64,000 nucleotides of DNA from contig NZ_JAVDYJ010000001.1 of assembly GCF_031458395.1 (NCBI RefSeq), forward strand, positions 1,798,001 through 1,862,000, given 5' to 3'. Made by a program: the position numbers and the translations under genes. The notes under the pieces are model-generated. The model was not told the DNA's origin, made no database searches, and saw only the letters and a list, made by a program, of their open reading frames with translations. Below, one piece after another: positions 27,889-41,320 of this stretch. This stretch comes from Enteractinococcus fodinae (GTDB taxonomy: Bacteria > Actinomycetota > Actinomycetes > Actinomycetales > Micrococcaceae). The stretch's first letter is position 1, and each line of letters begins with the position of its first letter.

Positions 27889-28776
27889 TTAGTACTCTTC
27901 GGTTGCCACTGGCTGTTCGCCTTCGGGAGTGGCACCGACTTGTTCTGCGGTTTCTACAGTGGCTGCGTCTGCTGGAGCAGCAGTGGTGTCAGCGGCTCCT
28001 TCATCAGCACTCTCGGTCTGACCTGATTCCAACAGTTCACGTTCCCACTCGGCCATTGGTTCTGCACCGGTTTCGCCTTTGCCCTGGTTGCGGGCCATGA
28101 GACCATCGGCGACTGCATCAGCAATGACGCGAGTCAGCAAGGCTACGGAACGAATCGCATCGTCGTTGCCTGGGATGGGGTAAGTCACATCGTCGGGATC
28201 AGCGTTGGTATCCAGGATGGCAACCACAGGGATCCCAAGCTTCTTGGCTTCATCGACAGCAAGGTGTTCTTTTTTGGTGTCGATGACCCAGATAGCCGAT
28301 GGGGTGCGGGTCATATTGCGAATACCGCCGAGGTTCGCCTGCAGTTTTTGCAGTTCGCGTTCCAGCAGCAGGAGTTCTTTTTTGGTGTGACCCGAGCCGG
28401 CGACATCTTCGAAATCGATTTCTTCGAGTTCTTTCATGCGGTCAACGCGCTTCGATACCGTGGCAAAGTTGGTGAGCATACCGCCCAGCCAACGATGGTT
28501 GACGTATGGCATGCCAACTCGTGTGGCTTGCTCGGAGATCGCTTCTTGGGCCTGCTTTTTGGTTCCTACGAACAAAATGCTGCCGCCGTGTGCGACGGTT
28601 TCTTTCACAAACTCATATGCGCGGTCGATGAAAGACAGGGATTGCTGTAGGTCAATAATGTAAATGCCGTTGCGTTCTGTGAAGATGAAGCGCTTCATCT
28701 TTGGGTTCCAACGACGTGTCTGGTGGCCGAAGTGCACACCAGAATCCAGCATTTCACGCATGGTTACGACTGACAT
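27889..28776 (-). CDS. rpsB: 30S ribosomal protein S2 (uS2)
   Basis: A 295-residue uS2 on the 30S solvent face, needed for binding protein bS1 and for initiation. The segments [30 protein letters not shown] and [19 protein letters not shown] are classic. The C-terminal 50 residues form an acidic, Ala/Glu/Thr-rich tail found in actinobacterial S2. The start ATG at 28776 follows AAGGAG. A second copy lies 348 bases upstream. This copy keeps the canonical tail and adjoins tsf, so it is presumably the main one. Confidence 0.96.
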
Positions 28777-29123
28777 GGTCGCTCCTTCAAAGTTATCCCG
28801 CACGCGGAATAACCTTCTCGTTATCGGTTAGTGTATGCAGCTGATTTTCTCAGCTTCCTAGCGTGAGTACGAAACAGTTCGGGAAGCACCGCTGACCAGA
28901 TTCCTCTGGACCGACGGGTGTAACTGCAACGCTCTGGTTGCACACTCACGCGCGTAGTCAACTGAGCACCCACCAAGGTAGGCACACAATTGCTTTGTCA
29001 AGCATACCCTATAGCGCACACGAATTTTACCTAGGTGTGACGCTCCACACACGTCCGATGCCTCAGGTCAACCGGAGCATAATGCCGTCACGATTCCCCA
29101 AGGTTGGCTGTGGTGCCTCGGAG
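28777..29123 (-). promoter_or_regulatory. rpsB: rpsB 5' leader and promoter region
   Basis: No gene is visible in this 347-base gap between the two S2 genes. On the minus strand a TTGACA (28996-29001) is followed after 15 bases by TACCTT, a possible promoter. A 10-bp hairpin with a 2-base loop (28792-28813, one G-U pair) lies just upstream of the rpsB ribosome site. S2 represses its own synthesis in E. coli through the leader, so a similar role is inferred. Confidence 0.45.
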
Positions 29124-30296
29124 CTATTGTCGGTTCTCACCTGCAGCCGCGATCTTGAATTCGACCTCTTCGCCCTGGACATCTTTGAGTTCGACTTCCC
29201 AGTAGAGCGAACCGTCTTCCTCTTCGAGTTCGATGGACTCCAATGTTGCGCCTTGGTGTTGAGCAACGGCTTGGCGCAGTGCGTCACGCAGTGAGACCGT
29301 CACTTGCGAGGCGCGCTGAATATCTTCATCGTCTGAGTCGACCTCATCCACAGTAATCTCGCCGTCGGGAGTCACCTCAAGTTCGTAGAGCTGCTGTTCA
29401 TGGACGAGCTCAACCTCGTAGGATGCGCCGTCATCTTCTTGTTCGACTTCGACGAGAATGCAGTTTGGATACGCCGCTTCAGCAGCTTGCAGCACGGATA
29501 ACACCGGTTTCAGCTTATCGGTTGCTCCGGTTGGACCGCTCGAGGAATCGGTTTGCAGTAGTTCCCGTTCCCATTCGGCCATGGGTTCGACGTTGTCGCC
29601 CTGGCCGTGGCGGGCCATCAGGCCTTCGGCCACGGCATCAGCGATGACGCGAGTCAGTAAGGTCACGGAGCGAATGGAGTCGTCGTTGCCGGGAATCGGG
29701 TAGGTCACTCGATCCGGGTTGGCGTTGGTATCCAGTATGGCGATGACCGGGATGCCCAGTTTGTTTGCCTCGTCCACGGCCAGGTGTTCCTTTTCGGTGT
29801 CCACCACCCAGATGGCCGAGGGGGTGCGAGTCATATCGCGGATCCCGCCTAGGCTGGCCTGCAACTTGAGCAGTTCACGTTCCAGTAGCAGCAGCTCTTT
29901 CTTAGTGTGGCCGGAACCGGCAACGTCTTCGAAGTCGATCTCTTCGAGCTCTTTCATGCGGTCGACGCGTTTCGAAACCGTGGCGAAGTTGGTGAGCATG
30001 CCACCCAACCAACGATGGTTGACGTAAGGCATTCCGACTCGAGTGGCTTGCTCGGCGATGGCTTCCTGCGCCTGTTTTTTCGTCCCGGCAAAAAGAATGC
30101 TGCCGCCGTGAGCCACGGTTTCTTTGACGAACTCGTAAGCCTGGTCAATCAGTGTCAGGGATTGCTGCAGATCGATGATGTAAATACCGTTGCGTTCGGT
30201 GAAAATAAAACGCTTCATCTTCGGATTCCACCGACTGGTCTGGTGCCCAAAGTGCGCACCAGATTCTAATAGTTCACGCATCGTTACTACAGCCAT
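29124..30296 (-). CDS. Second uS2 paralogue fused to tandem PepSY repeats
   Basis: A 390-residue chimera. Residues 1-245 are a complete uS2, differing from the neighbouring rpsB product at only about 23 positions in the first 230 by my count by eye. After the WERELL sequence the usual acidic tail is replaced by a short linker and residues about 262-390 form two PepSY-like repeats (with [15 protein letters not shown] in the second). The same region aligns almost without gaps to the lipoprotein at 38941-39585. No signal peptide precedes it, so the PepSY part is cytosolic or ribosome-bound. The ATG at 30296 follows AAGGAG; frame upstream is not used. It is unknown whether it joins ribosomes. Confidence 0.9.
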
Positions 30297-30466
30297 GATT
30301 GCTCCTTCACCTTCACCGGCACGTTCGTTGTTGAAGTACTGGGCGATATGCATGTGCAGACATTCATTAGCATACTCTTTCCACAGCAGCTTGGTGGGAA
30401 TGGGAGATATCCCCACCCACGGTGGTTGCCCACCGCGCAGTGGAGAAACCGCCCACACTTAGCATT

Positions 30467-31081
30467 ATGTACGCCTTTTCATTGTTCGCCTCACCGCCGC
30501 CTCGTCCCCCGTCGGGCCTCTGTGCCGTGGTGGTTCTGCTGCTGAATGCCGTGCTCTTGCTGGCGTGGTGGGCCTCTGGGGCTGTCGCTTCAGATATCGC
30601 GCCAACAAGGGCGTCTACGACGGATCGCTGGGTACCGCCGATCGTCGACGCCAACGAAGCCGATATCGTCAATGGTTTCATCCATCCCCAGATGCCTTGG
30701 TCAGCGGCTCATCGGGGTCTTGACCTTCGGTCTGCCACCCCACAGGTCGTTGCACCTGCTGCGGGCGAGGTGACGTTTGTCGGCATGGTGGTTGATCGGC
30801 CGGTCCTCACGATCCGGCACGCCAACGGCCTCTTGTCATCCTTTGAACCTGTGGAATCTGAGCTTCAGGTCGGTGACACTGTAAGCCAAGGTCAACAGCT
30901 GGGCGAACTCTCCGAGGGGGTGAGCCATTGCGAGGTGCAGTGCGTGCACTGGGGCGTTCGAAAGCCGGATGCTTGGCGCATCGGTTCAACGACGCGCGAC
31001 TTATATATAGATCCCGCATTCCTTTTGGGTTGGACTGAACCCTCGATCCTGTGGCCGATTCACACTGAGCCGGCGCCATAA
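30467..31081 (+). CDS. Exported M23/LytM-like peptidase-family protein
   Basis: A 204-residue protein with an N-terminal hydrophobic signal (about residues 18-43, possible cleavage after AVAS) and an M23-type domain. HRGLDLR, the VVAPAAGEVTFVG strand, VGDTVSQGQQLGELS and CVHWGVR match LytM peptidase folds, with HxGxD and HWG as metal ligand motifs. Such a gene sits upstream of rpsB in many actinobacteria, which supports the view that the S2-PepSY gene was inserted or duplicated between them. The start ATG at 30467 has no ribosome site. In-frame GTG codons at 30422 and 30440 are alternatives. Confidence 0.78.
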   Translation: MYAFSLFASPPPRPPSGLCAVVVLLLNAVLLLAWWASGAVASDIAPTRASTTDRWVPPIVDANEADIVNGFIHPQMPWSAAHRGLDLRSATPQVVAPAAGEVTFVGMVVDRPVLTIRHANGLLSSFEPVESELQVGDTVSQGQQLGELSEGVSHCEVQCVHWGVRKPDAWRIGSTTRDLYIDPAFLLGWTEPSILWPIHTEPAP

Positions 31082-38901: not shown

Positions 38902-38940
38902 TAACATGAAATGAAAATTCCACCGAAGGTTAGGAGTTTT

Positions 38941-39585
38941 ATGCTGACGAATACCAACGCTCGCCAATCGAGACTATTCATCGGGATCGCTGGAGCGGCC
39001 GCTCTGGGCTTGATGACTGCCTGTACTACCGATGACGCTGGCGAACAGCAACCGCCAGATCAGGAAGTCGAAACAGTCGACCCTAATGAGACGGAACAGG
39101 GCGCCACTGACGGTGAGCAGCAAGATGCCACCGACGATGCCGCCACAGCCGAGGAGACTACTCCTGGCGACACTACTGCGGAGGCCGAGGATGTAGAGCC
39201 ACTGGGTGGAGATCCGGTGTTTGATGTCGTAACGGCTGTAGAAGCAGAATACGCCGATGGTTTCATCGTCAGTATTGACCGTGATGATGACGACACCGCG
39301 CAGTATGAAGTCGAGATCGTGGTCGAGAGCGAACTTCAGGAACTCGACGTCACCGCCGGCGGCGAGATTACTGAAGACGACAGTGACACCGATGACGACA
39401 AGATTGCCAAGGCCGAGCAGGCTACTGTTACGGTGACCGCAGCATTGAATGAATCGTTCGATGCTCACCCAGAAGCCACGTTTGAACAGATCGAACTCGA
39501 CGAGGACGGCGACGAACTACGCTGGGAGGTCGAGCTTGAATCCGCCGAGGGCTCGGACATCGACTTCGAACTTCCTGCACGATAA
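38941..39585 (+). CDS. PepSY-domain lipoprotein
   Basis: A 214-residue lipoprotein. The signal peptide ends in the lipobox MTAC (Cys28). Residues 30-90 are an acidic, Thr/Glu/Asp-rich linker. Residues 91-214 carry two PepSY-like repeats (first about 92-148, second about 164-212). PepSY domains are often small extracytoplasmic modules found in proteins that inhibit or regulate peptidases. The last 120 residues are homologous to the tail of the uS2 fusion at 29124-30296, down to WEVEL. The ATG at 38941 follows AGGAG; a strong terminator follows the gene. Confidence 0.85.
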   Translation: MLTNTNARQSRLFIGIAGAAALGLMTACTTDDAGEQQPPDQEVETVDPNETEQGATDGEQQDATDDAATAEETTPGDTTAEAEDVEPLGGDPVFDVVTAVEAEYADGFIVSIDRDDDDTAQYEVEIVVESELQELDVTAGGEITEDDSDTDDDKIAKAEQATVTVTAALNESFDAHPEATFEQIELDEDGDELRWEVELESAEGSDIDFELPAR

Positions 39586-39723: not shown

Positions 39724-39729
39724 CAGTGG
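39724..39729 (+). promoter_or_regulatory. -10 box of the sirtuin pair
   Basis: TACAGT lies five bases before the ATG at 39735, consistent with a leaderless transcript. No convincing -35 is visible. Confidence 0.35.
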
Positions 39730-39734
39730 TGGGT

Positions 39735-40535
39735 ATGAGGACAGTGTCAGACGGCGCGATGCGCGAAGCTCAAGAGATTATTGAGGGTGCTCAACGAGTA
39801 GCGGTCCTGACAGGGGCCGGCATGTCTGCTGAATCGGGGGTCCCCACCTTTCGTGACGCCCAAACAGGACTGTGGGAAAAATACAGCCCCGAGCAACTCG
39901 CTACACCAGAAGCGATGGCAAACCAACCCGATTTGGTTTGGTCCTGGATGCTACATCAGGCCCGGGTCATGCGGGCAGTGGCCCCTCATGAAGGACATAT
40001 TGCCCTTGGCACATGGCAAAAACAGTTGCACGCCCGCGGCGGAGCCCTGGATATTATCACGCAGAATATTGATGATTTGCACGAACGTGCCGATGCGGAA
40101 GTGCTGGCTCATTTACACGGCACAACGTTCACTTTTCGGTGCTTCGAATGCGATGCTCCAGCGGACTACGCACTAGAGAGGGCAACCGAAGAGCAGTTAC
40201 AGGCGCGGCCTGACCTGGACCAATTAACACTGGACGAACCTCCAGCGTGTACGCGGTGTGACCACGGATTTCTTCGCCCCAATATTGTGATGTTCGGAGA
40301 GATGCTGCCACAAGGCGCTATGGATGAGGCCTTGGATGCAGTTCGTTCGGCAGACGTGGCGCTCGTGGTGGGGACATCAAATATTGTCCAGCCGGCAGCT
40401 TCACTGCCCATTGCCGCCTCAGCAGCCGGAGCCAAGGTCATCGAGGTCAATCCCAATATGACGCCCCTGTCCGAGGAAGCAGACGTGTATCTGAAGGGCA
40501 CAGCTCGCGACATTCTTCCGGAGCTTTACTCATGA
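39735..40535 (+). CDS. Sirtuin (NAD-dependent protein deacylase), divergent member
   Basis: A 266-residue sirtuin. GAGMSAESGVPTFR at residues 27-40 binds NAD, TQNIDDLHER follows, the catalytic His is His128 in HLHG, and the zinc cysteines are in CFEC (136-139) and CTRC. At the substrate-selecting site it has Met72 and Gln75 where SIRT5/CobB-type enzymes have Tyr and Arg, so it may not prefer acidic acyl groups. The start is taken as ATG at 39735. TACAGT at 39724-39729 would make the mRNA leaderless, though a GTG three codons earlier is possible. The stop overlaps the next sirtuin by four bases. Confidence 0.92.
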   Translation: MRTVSDGAMREAQEIIEGAQRVAVLTGAGMSAESGVPTFRDAQTGLWEKYSPEQLATPEAMANQPDLVWSWMLHQARVMRAVAPHEGHIALGTWQKQLHARGGALDIITQNIDDLHERADAEVLAHLHGTTFTFRCFECDAPADYALERATEEQLQARPDLDQLTLDEPPACTRCDHGFLRPNIVMFGEMLPQGAMDEALDAVRSADVALVVGTSNIVQPAASLPIAASAAGAKVIEVNPNMTPLSEEADVYLKGTARDILPELYS

Positions 40536-41320
40536 CATCTGACATGCAACGCGCAACGTTCCTGGTTCAGGATGCTCGCTCGGTGGTGGTGCTCTCCGGC
40601 GCGGGGATGTCTGCGGAGTCTGGCGTGCCGACGTTTCGTGATGCCCAGACAGGCCTGTGGGAGCGTTTTGCACCCGAAGAATTGGCAACCGAAGCGGCAT
40701 TCCGCGCCAACCCCTCGACAGTGTGGTCGTGGTACGTGTGGCGGGCGATGCTCGTGCGTAGCGTCAACCCCAACGATGGTCACCGAAAGATTGGCGCTTG
40801 GCAGCGGCACTTGGCCACCCAAGACGGGGCTTTGACGGTAGCAACACAAAATGTCGATGACCTCCATGAACGCGGTGGAGCACAAGAAGTCTTGCACTTA
40901 CACGGATCGTTACATGCATATCGTTGTCTGGACTGCGGAACCCCGGCGACTTTCGATCCGGCTTCGACTGGTGTGCGAGCTGACCAAGACTTCGGCAACC
41001 ACGATATTGTGCCCACGGTGGCCTGTAGCCACTGTGAACTGGGCGTTTTACGTCCCGGGGTGGTCTGGTTTGGGGAGATGCTTCCAGAGGACGCCTTTGG
41101 TGCAGCTGTCGCAGCGTTGCAGGAAGCTGACTTGGTGGTCGTGGTGGGGTCCTCGGGGCTGGTACAGCCAGCGGCGTCGTTACCATTACTAGGTCGCGAT
41201 GCCGGCGCTAAGATCATTGAGATCAACCCTGCTGCCACGGAACTGTCCAAGATGGCAGACGTTTATCTGCCCTCGACGGCAGCTGTGGCGTTACCCGAGA
41301 TGCTTTCGGGTGTGGTGTAG
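40532..41320 (+). CDS. Sirtuin (NAD-dependent protein deacylase), SIRT5/CobB-type signature
   Basis: A 262-residue sirtuin, the second of a tandem pair, starting in an ATGA overlap with the first. GAGMSAESGVPTFRD binds NAD, TQNVDDLHER follows, and catalytic His124 is in HLHG. CLDC (132-135) and CSHC are the zinc sites. Tyr68 and Arg71 (in the WYVWR sequence) match the Tyr-x-x-Arg of SIRT5 and CobB, which binds succinyl, malonyl and glutaryl lysine. Desuccinylase-type activity is therefore likely. It ends right against the convergent dNTPase gene. Confidence 0.93.
   Translation: MTSDMQRATFLVQDARSVVVLSGAGMSAESGVPTFRDAQTGLWERFAPEELATEAAFRANPSTVWSWYVWRAMLVRSVNPNDGHRKIGAWQRHLATQDGALTVATQNVDDLHERGGAQEVLHLHGSLHAYRCLDCGTPATFDPASTGVRADQDFGNHDIVPTVACSHCELGVLRPGVVWFGEMLPEDAFGAAVAALQEADLVVVVGSSGLVQPAASLPLLGRDAGAKIIEINPAATELSKMADVYLPSTAAVALPEMLSGVV

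Follow-up and report, generated by a model that had tools for sequence, protein, structure and literature searches.

A second ribosomal protein uS2 with a C-terminal tandem PepSY module in Enteractinococcus and Yaniella

The fusion gene and its domains

The window analysed here, a 64,000-nucleotide stretch of Enteractinococcus fodinae DNA, carries two neighbouring genes for ribosomal protein uS2 (Table 1). One is canonical rpsB; the other, immediately upstream, encodes a uS2 core that continues into a C-terminal pair of PepSY domains, and its reading frame is unbroken from the ATG at 30296 to the stop at 29124. The genome is assembled as one contig of 2,932,870 bases, in which these two S2 genes are the only matches to the Pfam family Ribosomal_S2 (PF00318).

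Table 1. Positions of the fusion gene, its parts and the associated features within the window.
Feature	Position	Strand	Basis or remark
Fusion gene (390 aa): paralogue of uS2 ending in two PepSY domains	29124..30296	-	ORF, Pfam
uS2 core, residues 1-247	29556..30296	-	Pfam Ribosomal_S2 at residues 9-225
PepSY domain 1, about residues 262-320	29337..29513	-	Pfam; AF2: helix and four strands
PepSY domain 2, about residues 324-385	29142..29327	-	AF2; best Pfam stretch 334-384
Codon 21 (R21S)	30234..30236	-	Ser in 4/4 full fusions, Arg in 34/34 canonical rows
Codon 168 (K168E)	29793..29795	-	Glu in 4/4 full fusions, Lys in 34/34 canonical rows
Shine-Dalgarno sequence of the fusion, GAAGGAGC	30301..30308	-	GGAGC kept in 4/4 full fusions
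170-bp interval between the fusion and the divergent M23 gene, upstream of both	30297..30466	-	Lacks the rpsB leader
Canonical rpsB (295 aa), heading rpsB-tsf	27889..28776	-	
Structured leader of canonical rpsB, ~210 nt	28777..28987	-	Conserved in 9/9 genus genomes; absent from the fusion
Divergent putative M23-family peptidase gene	30467..31081	+	Flanks the insertion site; ATG start
Double-PepSY lipoprotein, family of the tail donor	38911..39585	+	ORF can start at 38911; alignment, tree

The S2 half gives the whole protein a score of 314.9 bits against PF00318 (cut-off 26.1; E 2.6e-94) and 333 bits against TIGR01011 (cut-off 76.3), so that by the latter curated model it is a bacterial S2. Aligned with the product of the adjacent rpsB, 220 of 251 residues are identical (88%), with two gaps; the first-pass annotation of the window, made from the letters alone, had put the differences in the first 230 residues of this full-length uS2 at about 23, and the count is exactly that. 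Its reading of the extension as two PepSY-like repeats is borne out by Pfam PepSY (PF03413), which scores 37.7 bits (gathering cut-off 24; E 2.5e-9) with two passing stretches, and the near gap-free alignment it had seen between this tail and the lipoprotein spans 122 residues with one gap and 44% identity (E 2e-24). The same annotation held that the usual acidic tail of S2 had been lost. The original tail has indeed been replaced, but the new segment is also acidic, with a net charge of -21 to -31 over 142–145 residues in the five fusions described below, and we conclude that the exchange has kept and enlarged the acidic C-terminus.

On reading the translation, no lipobox or signal sequence is found ahead of the PepSY pair, the N-terminus being that of the S2 core. 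Because the protein begins directly with this core, with no signal sequence, it should stay in the cytosol; the exported or membrane location that is typical, if not defining, of PepSY proteins would not be shared by the fusion.

An AF2 model of the whole fusion has a mean pLDDT of 68.3, with ten-residue blocks at 45–83 in the S2 half and at 79–93 in the tail, its last ten residues excepted. The weakness of the S2 half is attributable to a shallow alignment (11 rows), and a fold search with the whole model places ribosomal S2 chains among the best 50 matches. Modelled alone, the tail reaches a pLDDT of 91.8 and a pTM of 0.85, and consists of a helix and strands, repeated twice. When a profile of the window lipoprotein together with the five tails is compared with solved structures, it picks out a single relative at E 2e-5, namely 9vy3, which bears the name of a PepSY protein (8 entries). 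The sole Foldseek match of the tail below E 0.001 is 4exr, a putative lipoprotein (E 8.1e-5, with modest TM values of 0.50/0.46). Most of the other Foldseek rows listed are PCNA-type clamps, which we regard as fold-level noise.

It is exceedingly improbable that the gene is an artefact of assembly error, a collapsed repeat or a frameshift. Besides the one-contig genome, the same gene is present in the assemblies of four other genomes (one of them partial), and the fusion and rpsB of any one genome are separated by a synonymous distance (dS) of 1.06–1.71, too much for the two copies to be confused; nothing was found in the window that favours an artefact. One artefact of this kind does occur elsewhere: in one relative, two contig ends overlap exactly over 4,555 bp, and the second fusion copy that results (G001-C2) was left uncounted. 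The same within-genome distances, taken over the S2 core as a whole, do not support recent gene conversion between the two S2 genes. The fusion is confirmed as a ribosomal-protein paralogue with a captured sensor-type domain, and as real, conserved and unusual.

Distribution, origin and constraint

The fusion is not peculiar to this genome. It is found in five of the nine genomes of the genus: complete in the window genome (G000), E. coprophilus DSM 24083 (G001), E. helveticum UASWS1574 (G006) and the Yaniella MAG 38_S52 (G008), and partial in the Enteractinococcus MAG bin101 (G007), where a contig end cuts the gene and residues 186–388 remain. In the four complete cases it lies between the divergent M23 gene and rpsB; in G007 it is directly upstream of rpsB and reaches the contig end. 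All five carriers therefore have rpsB immediately downstream of the fusion, followed in the window genome by tsf. The M23–rpsB neighbourhood, which the annotation had proposed to check, is also present in the four genomes that have no fusion (G002–G005), where the M23 match starts just 461–499 bp upstream of rpsB and the interval holds no similarity to the tail at E 1e-4. Since four of the nine genomes do not have the gene, the genus can live without it.

On a species tree built from six neighbouring genes, in which the G007 row is just 42% filled, the pattern of presence and absence needs at least two changes of state, and G008 groups with two fusion-free genomes, G002 and G005. The S2 cores of the four full fusions form one clade within the genus (support 88/86; the partial G007 fusion, the duplicate G001-C2 and L031, which has no recognised start, were omitted from this tree). 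The five tails likewise form one clade (100/98), which sits with the lipoproteins of the genus inside a clade of 99/98 support. Profiles built from four tails find the fifth at 153–205 bits and the genus lipoproteins at 106–140 bits. As a lipoprotein-type match is present in all nine genus genomes, the fusion tail is a copy and not a relocation. Core and tail trees alike place G008 on the deepest branch, a pattern consistent with a gene that was ancestral in the genus and was later lost in places; transfer of the fusion into G008 is possible. The first-pass annotation had proposed that a tandem rpsB duplicate captured a PepSY module, and the core and tail trees agree, identifying the donor as the genus's own double-PepSY lipoprotein. 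Duplication, capture, a single origin for each half, retention under constraint and absence of the rpsB leader are all supported.

Searches beyond the genus have found no further fusion among the matches listed in family and order samples, nor in a phylum sample. Across 395 family genomes (32 genera), only G000, G001, G006 and G008 are covered from residue 1 to at least residue 384 among the matches listed, and the longest listed match from outside the genus (G252) ends at residue 315 after reading through two stops. In 297 order genomes (95 genera), none of the matches listed from outside the window genome extends past model position 319 of 395. In both surveys, a fusion whose S2 half scored poorly could lie outside the matches listed. 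A search with the tail alone gives matches in 19 of 51 family genomes, at one place in each except the window genome, which has two; in 296 phylum genomes, no tail match outside the window genome reaches E 1e-9. Two short tail patterns, which reach close relatives only, were scanned over 84,980 species and yielded seven related loci from 80 stretches, of which five are the present fusions, one assembly appearing twice; the other two, which match the tail weakly, come from Geomicrobium and Tessaracoccus. No link to mobile elements or defence is indicated: there is no PADLOC match, none of 59 plasmid and 13 phage records with matches covers 80% of the fusion query, and the best eight listed matches of each kind all fall within residues 1–249.

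Substitution rates were estimated by NG86 for the same species pairs in the fusion and in rpsB, the partial G007 gene being left out for the S2 core. The fusion S2 cores have dN of 0.030–0.117 and dS of 1.05–2.41, a ratio of about 0.03–0.065, whereas dN in rpsB is 0.015–0.035; the fusion core is thus under strong constraint, yet changes two to five times faster (in dN) than rpsB. Synonymous distances between fusion copies are near saturation. In the tail, dN is 0.16–0.53, with dS of 1.66–3.3 in the three of ten pairs for which it could be computed. The corresponding dN for the lipoprotein domain, which represents the donor family, is 0.05–0.33, a somewhat slower rate of change than that of the tail. 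Both halves of the fusion are constrained.

From 34 canonical S2 rows (26 distinct, with some genomes represented twice), 175 invariant columns were defined. The full fusions change 8, 10, 12 and 16 of these, with G007 again omitted, while the nine rpsB products of the genus, each left out in turn, change none; the rpsB orthologues keep every invariant residue, and the fusion does not. Two changes are common to all four full fusions, R21S and K168E. The first converts QTRRWNPK to QTSRWNPK, a form seen in none of the 34 canonical rows. The Yaniella MAG fusion (G008; L052 8196-9377, minus strand) accounts for the highest count, 16 of 175. This copy has N93D in the NHRWLGG motif, which is invariant in all 34 canonical rows.

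The changes spare the coiled-coil, a region taken from the helices of the model and from its published role in binding 16S helices h35–h37. Within residues 94–156, 44 of 45 canonical-invariant columns are unchanged in all four fusions, compared with 106 of 130 elsewhere (changes in 1/45 versus 24/130, Fisher p 0.0057, for a region picked after seeing the data). Columns invariant within the genus give the same picture, with 2 of 54 changed in the coiled-coil and 41 of 159 elsewhere (p 0.00017, the region again being chosen post hoc). In known ribosomes the coiled-coil of uS2 binds the 16S head helices h35–h37, and a stabilising effect of the protein on the Shine-Dalgarno helix is assumed (PMC10931766). 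Because the coiled-coil is almost wholly conserved, docking of the fusion on the 30S subunit is plausible.

Substitutions near the position of R21S have been described in Listeria, where RpsB R22S and R22H are reported to compensate for loss of RpsU (PMC11006974). The Listeria site is the neighbouring residue 22 and not the same one, the agreement in residue numbering being deduced from match ranges with the Listeria chain 7nhn. The window genome, moreover, has no match to the bS21 family (PF01165), which is matched in 6 of 14 control genomes. We rejected a direct equivalence, and a bS21 connection of R21S is a lead only.

Expression signals and the rpsB leader

A strong Shine-Dalgarno region, GAAGGAGCAATC, precedes the ATG of the fusion in the window. 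No sigma-70-type promoter could be recognised upstream of the gene by consensus, which says little for an actinobacterium. The codon adaptation index of the fusion, 0.589, is the tenth highest of 52 window genes picked from the ORF list; rpsB has a higher value (0.666), and among 23 translation reference genes, whose mean is 0.71, the fusion would stand about level with the lowest (0.59). Core and tail are similar in this respect (0.593 and 0.581), and the lipoprotein gene has a value of 0.514.

It is the neighbouring rpsB, and not the fusion, that heads the tsf operon with a conserved leader. This leader ends in a hairpin just before the Shine-Dalgarno sequence and is conserved in the four fusion-free genomes as well. 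In the nine genus sequences, 9 of 52 pairs are changed on both sides in at least one sequence, a number that 1 shuffle in 500 attains, and pairing holds in 96.2% of cells; structures slid along the alignment give one to three two-sided changes. Because these nine related sequences also served to derive the structure, the comparisons are tilted towards it, and the window leader by itself folds only modestly better than shuffles (z -1.98). With no match in Rfam, it is a candidate actinobacterial rpsB leader element. Upstream of the fusion, no similarity to this leader is credited beyond the Shine-Dalgarno region; the short matches obtained (25 bp in G008 at E 0.087, the others at E 0.3–3.7) were ignored.

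A TGTG-N8-CACA palindrome, resembling a Crp/GlxR-type site, lies at 29036-29051, upstream of the rpsB leader. It occurs at the same distance from rpsB in eight of the nine genus genomes, the ninth having CGTG; about 1.6 chance occurrences of the pattern alone are expected per window.

Possible roles of the fusion protein

We tentatively prefer the reading that the fusion protein acts as an alternative uS2 in some 30S subunits, displaying near the mRNA exit an acidic tandem PepSY that binds a ligand, perhaps a cation. On this reading rpsB would have been duplicated upstream of itself near the base of the Enteractinococcus/Yaniella genus, and the acidic tail of the copy exchanged for the tandem PepSY of the genus's own lipoprotein. 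Having no rpsB leader, the fusion would escape any control that acts through it. Its product would take the place of uS2 in part of the 30S population, held there by the nearly unchanged coiled-coil, and expose the PepSY pair near the mRNA exit, where binding of a ligand would change translation by the fusion-bearing ribosomes or mark them. Only some PepSY proteins are known to bind metals. Also weighing against this reading are the 8–16 changes at canonical-invariant columns (R21S among them), a dN two to five times that of rpsB, codon adaptation lower than in rpsB, the four genomes that do without the gene, the weak S2 half of the AF2 model, the single modest Foldseek match of the tail and the lack of a consensus sigma-70-type promoter. 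A cation or a protein ligand is our best guess because UipA and LanPepSY bind metals and a PepSY protein regulates a sensor kinase, metal cations being, by analogy, the best-precedented ligand for an acidic tandem PepSY. We are doubtful of the more specific version in which a UipA-like sensor of metal or peptide, carried by the uS2 isoform on a subset of 30S subunits, sits next to the mRNA exit and the anti-Shine-Dalgarno region and its ligand tunes the choice of mRNA; were it true, we would know of no earlier case in which a core ribosomal protein had acquired a sensor-type domain of the extracytoplasmic kind.

The main alternative, which we consider unlikely, is that the protein works off the ribosome, its S2 domain binding the rpsB leader as a repressor or anti-repressor and its PepSY pair serving as a ligand switch. 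Autogenous repression of rpsB-tsf by uS2 through the 5' UTR is described for E. coli (PMC10931766), and the conserved leader with its compensatory changes, together with a leaderless fusion gene directly upstream of rpsB in every carrier, would suit such a circuit. Binding of S2 by this particular leader, with no Rfam match, is however a supposition by analogy; the leader is conserved equally where there is no fusion, and the part of the protein that has been preserved is the head-binding coiled-coil, most changes falling in the rest. Quite unlikely, in our judgement, is a carrier role, in which the S2 part would bring a cytosolic PepSY to ribosomes or keep it soluble, the PepSY acting for example as a clamp of chaperone type or by inhibiting a protease, and the target being a nascent or mature protein and not a small ligand. 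PepSY domains have been linked to the inhibition of proteases, and one PepSY protein, DbfQ, has a sensor kinase as its binding partner (PMC12714742). The putative M23 peptidase gene next to the fusion might seem to point the same way, but M23 adjoins rpsB in the four fusion-free genomes too, and its adjacency therefore says nothing.

The least probable of the roles weighed here is none at all, that is, an old and dispensable duplicate on its way out, with a weak dosage benefit and no specific use for its PepSY pair. Absence from four of nine genus genomes, with at least two changes of state, and protein evolution faster than that of rpsB are what such a gene would leave behind. The four full copies are nevertheless all intact, with strong purifying selection on the core, constraint on the tail and a conserved Shine-Dalgarno core, and codon adaptation is fairly high in the window; with dS near saturation, these argue against decay.

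Returning to the preferred reading of an alternative uS2, we know of no captured domain in ribosomal-protein paralogue pairs of the bL31A/bL31B type. Those pairs resemble the S2 pair in that one genome holds two versions of one ribosomal protein (PMC7363858). Compared with canonical uS2 (PF00318, TIGR01011), the fusion has in common the full-length core with its preserved coiled-coil, and differs in its own upstream region and in the PepSY pair that replaces the short acidic tail. The NCBIfam model 30S_S2_sunset (NF051451) is, by its name, a curated precedent for an S2 with an added C-terminal domain. Against this model the fusion scores 466.6 (cut-off 710) and matches only positions 1-280 of 382, similar to canonical S2 (489.4, positions 1-294); since the two score alike, the added sunset domain is not shared by the fusion. 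Among the matches listed, the titles and abstract beginnings of the open-licence literature contain no description of an S2–PepSY fusion, and the same literature yields nothing on a sunset domain together with a ribosomal protein.

For the tail, the closest likenesses are UipA and LanPepSY, and like them the fusion has two acidic PepSY domains. UipA reportedly also binds iron, to go by the title of the original paper on it. UipA of Microbacterium is described as a single-pass membrane protein with two negatively charged PepSY domains, whose negatively charged face binds uranium as uranyl; the likeness is one of description, the fusion carrying its PepSY pair on a paralogue of a cytosolic ribosomal protein (PMC8963506). 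LanPepSY of Methylobacillus binds lanthanides (PMC11845868) and likewise has two PepSY domains with acidic metal-binding residues, but is periplasmic and without S2 (PMC11845868, PMC12482762).

Whether bacteria have specialised ribosomes is under debate, and in many of the candidate paralogues the differences from the partner are slight. Here an S2 isoform is tagged by a folded, ligand-type domain that is under selection in much of a genus, a domain of a surface lipoprotein having been brought into the cytosol by its joining to a core protein of translation. Isoform-specific ribosomes could be tagged, purified and profiled in the cultivable E. coprophilus DSM 24083.

The donor family itself is more widespread, tail-like matches being present in 12 of the 32 family genera sampled. 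We read 25 lipoprotein-type matches, 9 from the genus and 16 from other genera, in stop-to-stop frames of 197–315 residues; all but L096 contain a lipobox-like motif, by a loose pattern. The double-PepSY lipoprotein may be a UipA-like metal-binding surface protein. In the window it is adjoined by two overlapping genes on the forward strand (39726-40535 and 40532-41320), whose similar products both contain GAGMSAESGVPTFRDAQTGLWE and which we take, by eye, to be a tandem pair of sirtuin-type deacetylases.
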